A DNA stretch of 16,104 nt from Burkholderiales bacterium (GTDB lineage: Bacteria > Pseudomonadota > Gammaproteobacteria > Burkholderiales > Burkholderiaceae_D), in contig JACPVY010000005.1 of the NCBI GenBank assembly GCA_016197345.1, positions 1-16,104 on the forward strand. Direction: 5' to 3'. The notes under the pieces are model-generated. The model was not told where the DNA came from. It did no database searches and saw only the letters and a list, made by a program, of their open reading frames with translations. The translations under genes were made by a program, and so were the position numbers. Below, piece by piece: positions 3,163 to 15,913 of the stretch (positions within the stretch are counted from its first letter, which is position 1; every line of letters starts with the position of its first letter).

Positions 3163-3287
3163 ATATACAACAGCGCCATCCACAAACTTCGCTGCCGTGT
3201 GGAAATTTTTTGGCATCAAGCAATATTGTGCGTTTGCGGTAAAATAGCGGCACTGCGCTGTGGTTGGCGCGCAACTTCTCCCCGACT

Positions 3288-4448
3288 ATGCCCCGGCTGT
3301 CACCTCTGTTGTACATCACTATCCTTGCCATCCTCGGTCATATGGTGCTGGCGGGAGTCCGCATCACTACCTCTTTGTATGCTTTGTCGTTACACGCTTC
3401 ACCTGCTGTCGTCGGTAGTTTGGTTGCCTTTACGTCACTGTTACCGATGTTTTTAGCAGTGCGCGCGGGCCGCTGGCAAGATCGGGTTGGCCTTGCCCTG
3501 CCGCTACGCTTAGGGCTAGCTTGTTTGATTGCTGGTTCCTCTATCGTGGTGCTATTGAATCAATTATGGGTGTTGTATGTCGCGGCAACCCTAGTCGGCG
3601 TCGGCTTCATGATGTTGCATGTTGCATCGCAAAATATGGTCGGCGTATTGAGTGCGCCAGAAAAGCGCGCCGCCAATTTCAGTTGGTTGGCTTTGGGCTT
3701 TTCCACCTCTGGTTTTTTGAGTCCAGTGATCTCGGGCGTCATCATTGATCACTTTGGTCACCATGCGGCCTATATCACGTTTTGTGCGATTGCTGTTTTG
3801 TCCATGGCACTGATTCAATTCAGCAATTTTTCCGATGTGCCACGGGCGCAGGTGGCGCAGAACAAGAGTCTGCCCGGGCAACAGAGTTTTTTAGATTTGT
3901 TTTGGCACGATAAGCCGCTACGCCATATTTATTTCATAGGCATTTTGCTCGCTTCATCGTGGGATTTGTTCACCTTCGTGATGCCGATTTATGGCACTAG
4001 CCACGGTTTTTCCGCGTCCTTAATCGGCTTCATTCTTGGCTGTTTTTCTGCTGCCACTTTTTTCATTCGTTTTTGCATTCCGCTACTGACGCGCTATCTG
4101 GCTGAGTGGCGCATGTTGTTGTTAGCGTTGTTGATCACTTGTTTGTGCTTCGCCGTTTTACCGTGGTTGCATAGCGCGTGGAGTTTGATGGCACTAGCGT
4201 TTGTGTTGGGGATAGGTCTAGGCGCAAGTCAGCCGAATATTCTCAATTTATTACATCAAGCCGCACCACCTGCGCGTGCGGCTGAAGCAGTGGGTATCCG
4301 TGTCACGATTAGTAATGCATCGCAAGTGGTATTCCCGTTAGCGTTTGGAGTTGTGGGTGCCAGCATGGGTTTGTTGCCAGTATTTTTGGCGATGAGTGCC
4401 GTCGTCGCTTCTGGCGTGCCGCTGGTATGGCGTAAAGCTTTTCACTGA
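3288..4448 (+). CDS. MFS transporter (386 aa)
   Basis: A hydrophobic protein of 386 residues with about twelve predicted membrane helices, so an inner-membrane secondary transporter. The loop between helices 2 and 3 reads GRWQDRVGLALPLRLG, a good match to the major facilitator signature GxxxDRxGxxxxL. There is a longer cytoplasmic loop in the middle (residues about 180-205), as usual between the two six-helix halves. I chose the ATG at 3288, which starts just before the first helix; a TTG at 3264 would add eight residues. Neither has a clear Shine-Dalgarno sequence. The stop is 8 bases before the hemerythrin-PdxH gene, so the two are probably co-transcribed. Substrate cannot be told from sequence; a vitamin B6 compound is only a guess from the neighbour. 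Confidence 0.88.
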   Translation: MPRLSPLLYITILAILGHMVLAGVRITTSLYALSLHASPAVVGSLVAFTSLLPMFLAVRAGRWQDRVGLALPLRLGLACLIAGSSIVVLLNQLWVLYVAATLVGVGFMMLHVASQNMVGVLSAPEKRAANFSWLALGFSTSGFLSPVISGVIIDHFGHHAAYITFCAIAVLSMALIQFSNFSDVPRAQVAQNKSLPGQQSFLDLFWHDKPLRHIYFIGILLASSWDLFTFVMPIYGTSHGFSASLIGFILGCFSAATFFIRFCIPLLTRYLAEWRMLLLALLITCLCFAVLPWLHSAWSLMALAFVLGIGLGASQPNILNLLHQAAPPARAAEAVGIRVTISNASQVVFPLAFGVVGASMGLLPVFLAMSAVVASGVPLVWRKAFH

Positions 4449-4456
4449 GAAAATAT

Positions 4457-5650
4457 ATGAACGAATCCTTATTTGAACCTGTCCCTGATTTTGATCAGCC
4501 AATCGCAGTGCTAAAACACTGCCATAACCGCATCCGCAAGCAAATTGCGACGATGCAGCGCTTGCTAGAGCATTTGCCTAGCGCGGGTGCCGATGAGCAA
4601 GCACAGCAAGCGGCAAAAGCCGTGCTGAAATATTTCAATCAAGCGGCCTTATTGCACCACGCCGACGAAGAAGAGAACTTGATGCCGATGTTGAGTGCGA
4701 CGGCGCAAGGGGAAGACGCCGAATTGCTCACGCAATTGCTGCCGAAAATCTTGAAAGAGCACAAGATGATGGAAGCAACGTGGCAAGTGTTGGCACTACA
4801 GCTAAGCGATATCGCGACGGGTGAGTCGGACGCCTTGTCGGAACACGATGTGCAGAATTTTAGCGATTTGTATGCAGGTCATATGGTGAAAGAAGAAACG
4901 CATATCGCGCCTATGGCGATGCGCATTTTTTCGGCCGAACAAATGGCGAGCCTAGGCGAAGCGATGAAAGCCCGGCGTGGTCTCTCGCAAGCGATGCCAG
5001 CCACCGTACCCTTGCCCGATATCGCCGCGATGCGTACTGATTATGCGCAAAAAACCTTGTCGGAACACGATGTACTAGACCAGCCTATCGACCAATTCGG
5101 CGTCTGGTTTGCTGAAGCGATTGCCGCCAGCGTGGCCGAAGCTAATGCGATGAGCGTGGCCACGGTCGATGCACAAGGGCGCCCTAGCAATCGCATTTTG
5201 CTGTTGAAAAATGTCGATGCGCGCGGTTTCACCTGGTTCACTAATTACGATAGTCGCAAAGGGCAAGATTTGGCGGCGAATCCACATGCCGCGCTGCTAT
5301 TTTTCTGGAATGAATTAGAGCGGCAAGTGCGGATAGAAGGCACGGTGGAGCGCATTAGCGCAGAAGAAAGCGATGCCTATTTCCACAGCCGCCCTTTGGC
5401 CAGCCGCTTAGGTGCGGTCGCTTCCGCCCAAAGCCAGCCGATTGTTGATCGCGCGAGCATGGAGCAGCAATATGCCGCAGCGCAAGCCAAATTTGGGGAC
5501 GCACCAGTGCGCCCAGCAGAGTGGGGCGGCTATCGCTTAAGCCCGACCCGCATCGAATTTTGGCAAGGCCGCCAATCGCGTTTCCATGATCGCATTGTGT
5601 ATATCTTGCAAGCCGATGGCAGTTGGAGCAAGCAGCGCTTGCAGCCGTAG
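4457..5650 (+). CDS. pdxH: Hemerythrin-like domain fused to pyridoxamine 5'-phosphate oxidase (PdxH)
   Basis: One 397-residue protein with two domains. Residues about 15-172 form a hemerythrin/HHE helical bundle with a full set of candidate di-iron ligands: His23 (in HCHNR), His68 and Glu72 (HHADEE), His102 (KEHKMME), His142 and Glu146 (GHMVKEE). Residues about 181-397 match the whole of PdxH, which oxidises pyridoxamine or pyridoxine 5'-phosphate to pyridoxal 5'-phosphate with FMN and O2. Counterparts of the E. coli active-site residues are present by alignment from memory: Arg193/Tyr196, Arg246 and Lys251 (RILLLK), Tyr308/Arg312/Ser316 (YFHSRPLAS) and Arg375/His377 (SRFHDR). PdxH alone is about 218 residues, and Met180 to the end is exactly 218, so the hemerythrin part is a clean N-terminal addition with no frame break between. 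It follows an MFS gene by 8 bases. I do not recall this fusion as a described protein. Possible roles of the extra domain (O2 supply, O2 or nitric oxide sensing, iron-linked control) are inference. Confidence 0.92.
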   Translation: MNESLFEPVPDFDQPIAVLKHCHNRIRKQIATMQRLLEHLPSAGADEQAQQAAKAVLKYFNQAALLHHADEEENLMPMLSATAQGEDAELLTQLLPKILKEHKMMEATWQVLALQLSDIATGESDALSEHDVQNFSDLYAGHMVKEETHIAPMAMRIFSAEQMASLGEAMKARRGLSQAMPATVPLPDIAAMRTDYAQKTLSEHDVLDQPIDQFGVWFAEAIAASVAEANAMSVATVDAQGRPSNRILLLKNVDARGFTWFTNYDSRKGQDLAANPHAALLFFWNELERQVRIEGTVERISAEESDAYFHSRPLASRLGAVASAQSQPIVDRASMEQQYAAAQAKFGDAPVRPAEWGGYRLSPTRIEFWQGRQSRFHDRIVYILQADGSWSKQRLQP

Positions 5651-5960: not shown

Positions 5961-8273
5961 CTATCGATGCGCCACCGCATCCACCACGCATAGCGCCGTC
6001 ATATTGACAATCCGCCGCACGGTAGAAGATGGCGTCAAGATATGCACGGCGCGCGCGCAGCCGAGCAAAATTGGGCCAATCGCAATGCCATTGCCGGAGG
6101 TGGTTTTCACCAAGTTATAGGCAATATTGGCGGCATCGATATTCGGCATCACCAGCAAATTCGCATCTTCTTTTAGCGTCGATTGCGGCATGATCGATTT
6201 GCGCAGGGCTGAATCCAATGCTGTGTCCCCATGCATTTCGCCATCCACTTCTAGCCACGGCGCATCGCGTTGGATCAATTCCAACGCGGCGCGCATTTTT
6301 TTCGCGGATTCGCTATCGCTAGAGCCAAAATTGGAATGCGATAACAGCGCCGCCCGTGGTTGCAAACCAAAACGCATCATTTCATCGGCTGCCATGATGG
6401 TGATTTCGGCCAGTTCCTCAGCGTTTGGATTTTCATTGACGTGGGTATCGACTAGCGCTAGCTGGCGCTCTGGCAATAGCAAGACATTCATCGCCGCATA
6501 GACATTGCTGCCACCGCGTTTGCCCAGAATTTGGTCGATGTAATGCAAGTGCAAACCAGTGGTGCCAAAGGTGCCGCAGATCATGCCGTCGGCATGTCCC
6601 TTATGGATCGCCATCGCGCCGATCAATGTATGGCGACGCCGCGTTTCAATCTTGGCATATTGCTCCGTCACGCCGCGTCGCGCGGTCATCTGGTGATAAG
6701 TCTGCCAATAATCGCGATAGCGTTCATCGTGCTCTGGGTTGATGACATCGAAATCCACACCTGCTTGCAAGCGCAGACCAAATTTGGCGATGCGCGAAGC
6801 CAGCACCGAAGGGCGGCCAATCAACATCGGTTTCGCTAAACCCTCATCGACCACGATTTGCACCGCACGCAACACGCGTTCATCTTCGCCTTCGGCATAG
6901 ACGATACGTTTGCGGCCATCTGGCGATTTTTTGGCGACATCAAACAGCGGTTTCATGAACGTGCCGCTGCGATAGACGAATTGCTGTAGCTTGTCGCTAT
7001 AGGCTTGCATATCGGCGATAGGCCGTGTGGCGACCCCCGATTCTTGCGCCGCACGTGCTACTGCCGGCGCGATTTTCATCAGCAAGCGCGGATCAAATGG
7101 CATCGGGATCAGGTATTCTGGCCCGAACGATAGGTTTTGAATGCCATAGGTGGTGGCGACGATATCGGATTGCTCTGCCTGGGCTAATTCGGCAATCGCA
7201 TGCACCACCGCGATTTCCATTTGACGCGTGATCGTGGTCGCGCCGCAATCCAAAGCACCGCGGAAAATATATGGGAAGCACAGCACGTTATTGACTTGGT
7301 TCGGGTAATCCGAACGACCTGTCGCTACAATCGCATCGGCACGCACCGCCATCACTTCTTCCGGCAAAATTTCTGGGGTAGGATTGGCGAGCGCGAGCAC
7401 CAAGGGCTTGGCCGCCATCTTACGCACCATGTCTTGCTTCAAAACGCCACCCGCCGAGAGGCCAAGGAAAATATCGGCATCAGGTATCACTTCGGCCAGC
7501 GTGCGCGCTGGAGTGTCTTGTGCGAAGCGCTCTTTATCCGGGTCCATCAACTCGGTGCGTCCCTTATAGACGACCCCAGCGAGGTCTGTCACAAAAATAT
7601 TTTCAAGGGGGAAGCCCAGATCGACTAGCAAATCAAGGCAGGCCAGCGCTGCTGCGCCCGCGCCTGATACCACTAATTTGCATTGCTTGATATCTTTGCC
7701 GACGACCTTAATACCGTTCAAAATCGCCGCACCAACGATGATGGCGGTGCCATGTTGATCATCGTGGAAGACCGGAATATTCATCTTGCCGCGCAATTTG
7801 CGCTCAATGTAAAAGCACTCTGGCGCTTTAATGTCTTCCAGATTAATGCCGCCAAAAGTCGGTTCTAGCGAGGCGATGATGTCGCACAATTTATCTGGGT
7901 CTTGCTCGTTGATTTCGATATCGAAGACATCGATGCCAGCGAACTTCTTAAACAGCACGCCTTTGCCTTCCATCACGGGTTTGGATGCGAGTGGCCCGAT
8001 ATTGCCCAGACCCAGCACCGCCGTACCATTGGTGATGACGGCGACTAAATTGCCGCGTGCGGTGTATTTGTAAGAAGCGGCAGGATCTAACGCGATTTCT
8101 TCGCAAGGGGCGGCAACGCCGGGCGAATAGGCGAGCGCTAAGTCGCGCTGGTTGGTTAGTTGTTTGGTGGCGGTGACGCGGATTTTGCCGGGGGTTGGAA
8201 ATTCATGGTATTCCAAGGCGGCGAGGCGTAGTTTTTTACGTAATTCTTCTTTTTGTTCAGATGATGCATCCAT
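5961..8273 (-). CDS. maeB: NADP-dependent malic enzyme with phosphotransacetylase-like domain (MaeB)
   Basis: The 770-residue length agrees with the large two-domain malic enzymes (E. coli MaeB is about 760). It converts malate to pyruvate and CO2 with reduction of NADP, in the cytoplasm, feeding pyruvate and NADPH. Residues 1 to about 430 are the malic domain: [10 protein letters not shown] around Tyr49, [15 protein letters not shown] from 101, NLEDIKAP near 144-151 (metal-binding acids), FHDDQHGTA at 169-177, the dinucleotide-binding SGAGAAA at 203-209, and the later ANPTPEI and [24 protein letters not shown] motifs. From about 440 the C-terminus is phosphotransacetylase-like; in the family this part is regulatory (acetyl-CoA response), not a proven transacetylase. 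The ATG at 8271-8273 has a purine-rich GGGAAGG upstream. It appears monocistronic, and its 3' end faces the hemerythrin-PdxH gene. Cofactor choice of NADP is by family, not read from residues. Confidence 0.95.
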
Positions 8274-15481: not shown

Positions 15482-15913
15482 ATGGATTATTTCGACCCCG
15501 ACTCCATCCCCGGCACTGAACCACACCGTTGGCTGATGCTAGAAAATATCCAAGAAATCGAAGCTTGGATGGATTTAAATGACCGCGAATTACGCAAATT
15601 GCTGGCAGACAAACCGGGACAGACGCAAGGGCAGGGGATTTGCTTTAGTTTGTTGCATGGTGGTGAGATTTACGTGCATAGCACCGAAACCGGTGATATT
15701 TTATTAGATGTGACTGCGGACGCCGCTTGGGTTGCTCCTGTGATTAGCGCCGCGACACGCGTGGCTCCGCCAGCGGGACAGGTTTGGGCCTTGCCACAAG
15801 GAAGTTTGTTGCCCCTTATTCTCGGCCTGAATAGCCTGATTGCGACCAGCCATCTCGTGCTGGAGCATCGCTATAGAGGCGCGTTTGCCCAACGTCAATT
15901 TCATCGCGAGTAA
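15482..15913 (+). CDS. Hypothetical protein (143 aa)
   Basis: I do not recognise the family. The start is well supported: AAGGA at 15472-15476 is five bases before the ATG, and a promoter lies upstream. The protein has no signal peptide; the N-terminal half is acidic (DYFDPDSIPG, EIEAWMDLNDRELRKLL), then IYVHSTETGDILLDVTADAAWV looks like beta strands, and a hydrophobic stretch GSLLPLILGLNSLIATSHLVL lies near residues 106-126 and could be a buried helix or a membrane segment. Its coding frame, start signals and length argue that it is real. The next frame starts four bases after its stop. Confidence 0.65.
   Translation: MDYFDPDSIPGTEPHRWLMLENIQEIEAWMDLNDRELRKLLADKPGQTQGQGICFSLLHGGEIYVHSTETGDILLDVTADAAWVAPVISAATRVAPPAGQVWALPQGSLLPLILGLNSLIATSHLVLEHRYRGAFAQRQFHRE

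Follow-up and report, generated by a model that had tools for sequence, protein, structure and literature searches.

A hemerythrin-like domain joined to the vitamin B6 enzyme PdxH in Burkholderiaceae_D genomes

The window analysed here is a 16,104-base stretch of contig JACPVY010000005.1, from assembly GCA_016197345.1 of a Burkholderiales bacterium (family Burkholderiaceae_D). It contains a fusion gene, hhe::pdxH, whose single open frame encodes a hemerythrin-like (HHE) domain followed by a complete PdxH. The last step of vitamin B6 cofactor synthesis, an O2-using flavin step, is thereby tied to a conserved predicted di-iron site. Both parts belong to known families, and the fusion is already present in sequence databases as plain PdxH. 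The architecture, for which the initial sequence-only reading gave no earlier description, is described in no paper found in the open-access literature searched, although wording with 5′-phosphate probably escaped some queries. If functional, the fusion would link cofactor supply to iron, O2, nitric oxide (NO) or peroxide; if not, it would be a clean natural case of a retained neutral gene merger.

The family sample comprised 195 genomes, 180 of which gave a match to the query; the 150 best listed of these 180 were fetched and classified. The fused form was found in 56 genomes, a split form with adjacent hhe and pdxH genes in 47, and an hhe-free form in a further 47. An assembly or frame artefact is ruled out, because the same fused frame is present in 55 genomes other than that of the window. 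Since the fused, split and hhe-free forms share one locus, the contribution of the iron domain is directly measurable in vitro and in vivo.

The fusion protein and its two parts

Matches to domain and family models and a structure model bear out the first interpretation of the gene as an uninterrupted 397-residue frame with an HHE domain and then a full PdxH. The iron ligands and the flavin mononucleotide (FMN) and substrate residues had also been named correctly. The HHE part scores above the Pfam cut-off for PF01814, is modelled as a four-helix bundle and is predicted to bind iron. All six predicted ligands are invariant in the alignment of the 56 fused proteins, as are H21, C22, H67, E71, W109, Y139 and E147. 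The split proteins whose sequences cover the ligand region (those of G045 and G087 are truncated where their contigs stop) keep the six ligands as well, with the sole exception of G101. At the G101 locus (L081, positions 127–1315; genus g28, genome of 1.7 Mb), stops break up hhe whereas pdxH stays open, an indication that this genome can do without hhe.

The ligands follow the order H-HxxxE-H-HxxxE, with four His and two Glu, which is the type of the RIC/YtfE proteins (TIGR03652). In YtfE, the ligands are His84, His129/Glu133, His160 and His204/Glu208 (PMC9052748), so that the spacing is 45, 4, 27, 44, 4, nearly identical to the 45, 4, 30, 40, 4 of the fusion. The fusion is nevertheless distinct from that family: it has no ScdA_N match and scores 21.6 bits against a cut-off of 204.7. 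The signature of O2-binding hemerythrins is H-HxxxE-HxxxH-HxxxxD, with five His, a Glu and an Asp (PMC9388753), and here it fails at two positions. Position 106 (helix C +4) is Asp in 49, Glu in six and Phe in one of the 56 fused proteins, and position 147 (helix D +5) is Glu in all of them. The original view of the domain as an O2-binding hemerythrin is thus unsupported; it is weakened because the ligand set resembles that of YtfE/RIC and is not of the O2-carrier type.

The closest known systems include NMB1532 of Neisseria meningitidis (PDB 2p0n), a separate HHE chain of 172 residues with no assigned function and no PdxH part. The score for the family of the ribosome-binding persister protein PA2171 (NF053874) is 27.4 bits, below the cut-off of 190. 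Hemerythrin domains fused to signalling domains, namely methyl-accepting chemotaxis protein (MCP) and GGDEF domains, have been described (PMC4919030) and have in common with HHE::PdxH an HHE-fold domain joined to another domain. The fusions treated there concern O2-binding hemerythrins, however, whereas here the ligands are of another set and HHE is joined to a biosynthetic enzyme. The term ‘pyridox’ is absent from the main text of that paper, the full architecture list of which is given as a figure.

The PdxH part reaches 264.5 bits with the equivalog model TIGR00558, the curated cut-off of which is 180 bits, and all 44 fused proteins that were aligned match this model with E of at most 0.001. 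Across 149 relatives in all locus states, R193, R246, K251, R375 and H377 are kept in every sequence, and R312 and Y196 in 148. This part shares with known PdxH proteins the whole enzyme, including the fold and the catalytic and lid residues; it is complete, and oxidase activity on pyridoxine and pyridoxamine 5′-phosphates is predicted. It differs in carrying the N-terminal HHE domain and in the lack of conservation of the allosteric Arg23 and Arg24 of the E. coli enzyme. Loss of these arginines, which serve feedback by pyridoxal 5′-phosphate, was considered as a hallmark of the fusion and rejected: split and hhe-free relatives also have no conserved arginines there, so the loss is unconnected with fusion.

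In a family-wide search with the query, 50 of the 56 fused genomes had one match only. Among the other six, G018 owes its second match to the HHE half of the fusion frame itself, and the remaining five have further matches. No second PdxH was found in the window's own genome, which is 68% complete. Of 12 genomes tested for pdxJ, 11 have the gene, the single miss being that same incomplete genome; PdxH is therefore probably needed by the hosts. Most of the carrying hosts examined thus seem to have no PdxH other than the fusion for the deoxyxylulose 5-phosphate (DXP)-dependent route. As a separate observation, all 12 sampled genomes of genus g6 (1.2–2.6 Mb) were without any match to the query and apparently have no PdxH at all.

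The two homology blocks are joined by a linker of 11–49 residues across the fused proteins. The single-chain structure model (pTM 0.55) places the domains, and hence the iron site and the FMN site, without confidence relative to each other. No conserved internal start that would give free PdxH was found among the 56 fused genes; an internal start with a Shine–Dalgarno-like motif near the junction occurs in three of them, at differing positions. An exact 19-base direct repeat lies at 4833–4851, within the HHE part, and at 5055–5073, at the start of the PdxH part, and has perhaps arisen by chance.

Table 1. Positions of the fusion gene, its parts and the adjoining transporter gene in the window
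Feature	Position	Strand	Basis or remark
hhe::pdxH fusion gene, 397 aa	4457..5650	+	Single open frame: HHE bundle, linker, complete PdxH
HHE (hemerythrin-like) domain, residues 15–154	4499..4918	+	
His23 codon, predicted iron ligand, within invariant H21-C22-H23	4523..4525	+	Kept in 56/56 fused proteins
His68 to Glu72, helix B HxxxE predicted ligand pair	4658..4672	+	Conservation across fused proteins
His102 codon, helix C predicted iron ligand	4760..4762	+	Conservation across fused proteins
His142 to Glu146, helix D HxxxE predicted ligand pair	4880..4894	+	Conservation across fused proteins
Fifth helix, residues 160–173, closing the HHE unit	4934..4975	+	Structure model; separate HHE proteins of relatives stop shortly past the equivalent segment
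Linker, residues 174–187	4976..5017	+	Low model confidence; variable length among relatives
N-terminal PdxH lid segment with Arg193, Tyr196 (E. coli Arg14, Tyr17)	5021..5065	+	Alignment offset and conservation; lid role according to PMC10969823
PdxH part, residues 188–397	5018..5647	+	
MFS transporter (PF07690)	3264..4448	+	Stop 8 bases ahead of the fusion gene

Distribution and origin of the fusion

The fused form spans eight genus groups. In the split form, represented in 15 genus groups, hhe and pdxH adjoin on the same strand, and in the hhe-free class the 2 to 4 kb upstream of pdxH contain no such hhe. Thus, hhe is linked to pdxH, by fusion or adjacency, in 103 of the 150 genomes. In the protein database, the 120 listed of 6318 matches cover 98–100% of the query and contain the Pfam hemerythrin domain together with the two PNPOx domains; where the source gives a name, it is nearly always pyridoxamine 5′-phosphate oxidase or pdxH. 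The organisms among these 120 are Massilia, Telluria and unassigned Pseudomonadota, and the fusion is also carried by a Duganella genome. Outside the family, no match covering both parts was found among those listed for 300 genomes of the order, 369 of the class and 299 of the phylum, samples that overlap in part. Beside the six outside-family matches reaching furthest into the HHE side, no HHE was found (0/6). As a separate gene, the HHE subfamily is matched in 99 of the 300 order genomes, 92 outside the family and seven inside. Contig C325 of the window's own genome carries two more HHE-domain frames near each other (L001 and L002), which are no close kin of the fused HHE.

The fusion may well have come from a neighbouring pair through loss of a stop codon, since the genes of the split relatives are closely spaced and arranged head to tail. 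Of the 47 split pairs, 16 have a pdxH start that overlaps the stop of hhe; in 25 the two are no more than 24 bases apart, and in six the start follows the stop at a distance of 38–86 bases. Both genes are in one frame in 18 pairs, 14 of which have 39–51 nt between the homology blocks; linkers of 11–15 residues (33–45 nt) are found in 15 of the 56 fused proteins. In such a pair, the loss of one stop codon would be sufficient for fusion. An MFS transporter gene provides a common landmark in 25 of the 150 genomes: it directly precedes pdxH in 17, the hhe-pdxH pair in six and the fusion in two, both of the window's genus. The arrangements MFS-pdxH, MFS-hhe-pdxH and MFS-hhe::pdxH are one locus in three states.

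The PdxH tree requires two changes between fused and not fused. With a 73-row subset, three changes are required, and a single fused clade is not rejected (p-AU 0.76), so a single fusion event is possible. The HHE tree also has three changes. In it, the window's genus g1 groups with g9 next to g12, a split genus (support 94), which leaves room for a second fusion in the lineage of the window or for a reversal in g12.

Possible roles of the HHE domain

The reading tentatively favoured is that HHE serves as a semi-independent di-iron module on a tether, acting on peroxide, NO or iron next to the flavin. The bundle, attached immediately ahead of the active-site lid by a tether whose length varies, would be made one-to-one with PdxH and would take care of small reactive species close to the enzyme, whether flavin-derived H2O2, NO or loose iron. 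Cofactor synthesis could thereby continue under oxidative or nitrosative stress. The sequences show directly the fusion itself, the conservation of the ligands, the copy number, the varying linker and, in relatives, the adjacency of the two genes; the chemistry of the module and its benefit are inferred. Semi-independence is suggested by the free variation of the tether and by the occurrence of the pair as two proteins; on the same grounds (a linker of 11–49 residues and a two-protein form), neither rigid channelling nor strict covalent gating is likely. The six ligands are invariant although the between-genus identity of HHE in fused genomes averages 62% (70% for PdxH), which speaks for such a module. 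Such chemistry would also have parallels among related di-iron proteins: YtfE reduces nitrite (PMC9052748), and the hemerythrin-like protein (HLP) of M. kansasii acts as a weak catalase and NO peroxidase (PMC8913304). Peroxide protection, one of the roles proposed at the outset, is possible, as is a gate on PdxH governed by O2, iron or NO.

Several observations weigh against a tethered module of this kind. The main weakness is that the peroxide burden is probably small because PdxH is slow: the kcat of the E. coli enzyme is about 0.25 per second, or some one turnover per four seconds, by an approximate reading of the table in PMC8215295. Its H2O2 output would be small beside that of the rest of metabolism, and a scavenger reserved for this enzyme would bring little benefit. 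In the M. kansasii protein there is an additional tyrosine ligand, described as found in mycobacterial HLPs alone (PMC8913304). As many as 47 of the 150 genomes have no hhe nearby, and in all three hhe-free genomes searched (G004, G013 and G026) no HHE of this subfamily was present anywhere in the genome. In G038 (locus L082), PdxH falls inside the fused clade of the PdxH tree, with no HHE upstream; no HHE relic was found at this locus, and loss of the HHE part is possible there. Identities of HHE and PdxH are correlated with r of 0.71 in fused pairs and of only 0.35 in split pairs. No stress-system neighbour was recognised around the locus. Finally, the genomes would look the same if two adjacent genes had undergone a neutral merger.

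Such a merger is ranked nearly as likely as the tethered module, and is itself no more than a modest possibility. HHE would have a job of its own, such as the handling of NO, peroxide or iron, that has nothing to do with vitamin B6, and loss of a stop would have joined it to the closely spaced pdxH with no functional gain. The adjacency of hhe and pdxH at this locus in 47 genomes agrees with this, as do the variable linker and the trees, which allow a few fusion events followed by inheritance. The HHE subfamily is, moreover, often encoded on its own elsewhere (matched in 99 of 300 order genomes), with no widely shared neighbour: outside the family, no neighbour within 1.5-kb flanks is common to more than three of 23 loci. 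Persistence of the fused form in eight genus groups and the hhe–pdxH linkage in 103 of 150 genomes, on the other hand, are less readily explained by neutrality.

A sensor or gate is ranked just behind the neutral merger. HHE would report O2, NO or iron through its conformation or folding stability and so control how active or how long-lived the PdxH joined to it is. FBXL5 is an example of folding-stability sensing by an HHE domain. The gating model is invited because the linker leads directly into the active-site lid (Arg193 and Tyr196), a role attributed to the N-terminal segment of PdxH (PMC10969823). The variable linker with its low model confidence and the separate proteins in 47 genomes speak against a covalent lever, however. 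Loss of the feedback arginines is not linked to fusion: Arg occurs at the second position in four of 47 hhe-free sequences.

An electron relay is improbable. FMN, reduced by pyridoxine or pyridoxamine 5′-phosphate, would give two electrons to the di-iron site, which would turn O2 into water or reduce H2O2 or NO, with no release of H2O2; HHE::PdxH would then be a flavin–di-iron oxidase built from unrelated parts, and B6 synthesis would be peroxide-free or would continue when O2 is scarce. Flavodiiron proteins likewise unite FMN with a di-iron site, by means of a flavodoxin and a metallo-β-lactamase-type di-iron domain; neither of these domains is among the Pfam matches of the fusion, which is not a member of that group. 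A predicted FMN and a predicted di-iron site in one protein do set a two-electron donor beside a two-electron acceptor, and Trp109, Tyr139 and Cys22 of HHE are invariant in 56 of 56 fused proteins. The same residues are also kept in the split proteins, however, the structure model gives no confident domain placement, and the basis of the idea is analogy, with neither a partner nor a geometry pointing to it.

Storage of O2 and its delivery to the flavin at low oxygen, the main idea of the sequence-only reading, is very improbable: PdxH uses O2 (PMC10969823) and some hemerythrin-fold proteins bind it (PMC9388753), but the O2-carrier signature fails, one site per slow enzyme would store almost nothing, and a low-confidence tether of variable length, replaced by separate proteins in 47 genomes, is ill-suited to delivery.

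Neighbouring genes

The MFS transporter gene and the fusion gene possibly share one transcript. A scan for promoters and terminators between 2700 and 6000 gave uninformative counts: three promoter-like sites, with 3.4 in shuffled sequences, and nine terminator-like sites, with 5.2 in shuffles. The commonest neighbour clusters occur in all three locus states, and a few smaller ones, present in 4–5 genera, are found with the fused form only; these clusters are rough, being built from stop-to-stop frames with shadow frames included. Defence-system models gave no matches for three proteins. A 143-aa frame at 15482–15913 has no Pfam match at E up to 0.001. On the reverse strand, 5961–8273 encodes an NADP-dependent malic enzyme with a phosphotransacetylase-like C-terminal domain, which is a common arrangement. 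A large RTX-repeat protein with DUF4214 is encoded at 46–2739; it contains an HExxHxxGxxH-like stretch and is possibly a secreted metalloprotease.
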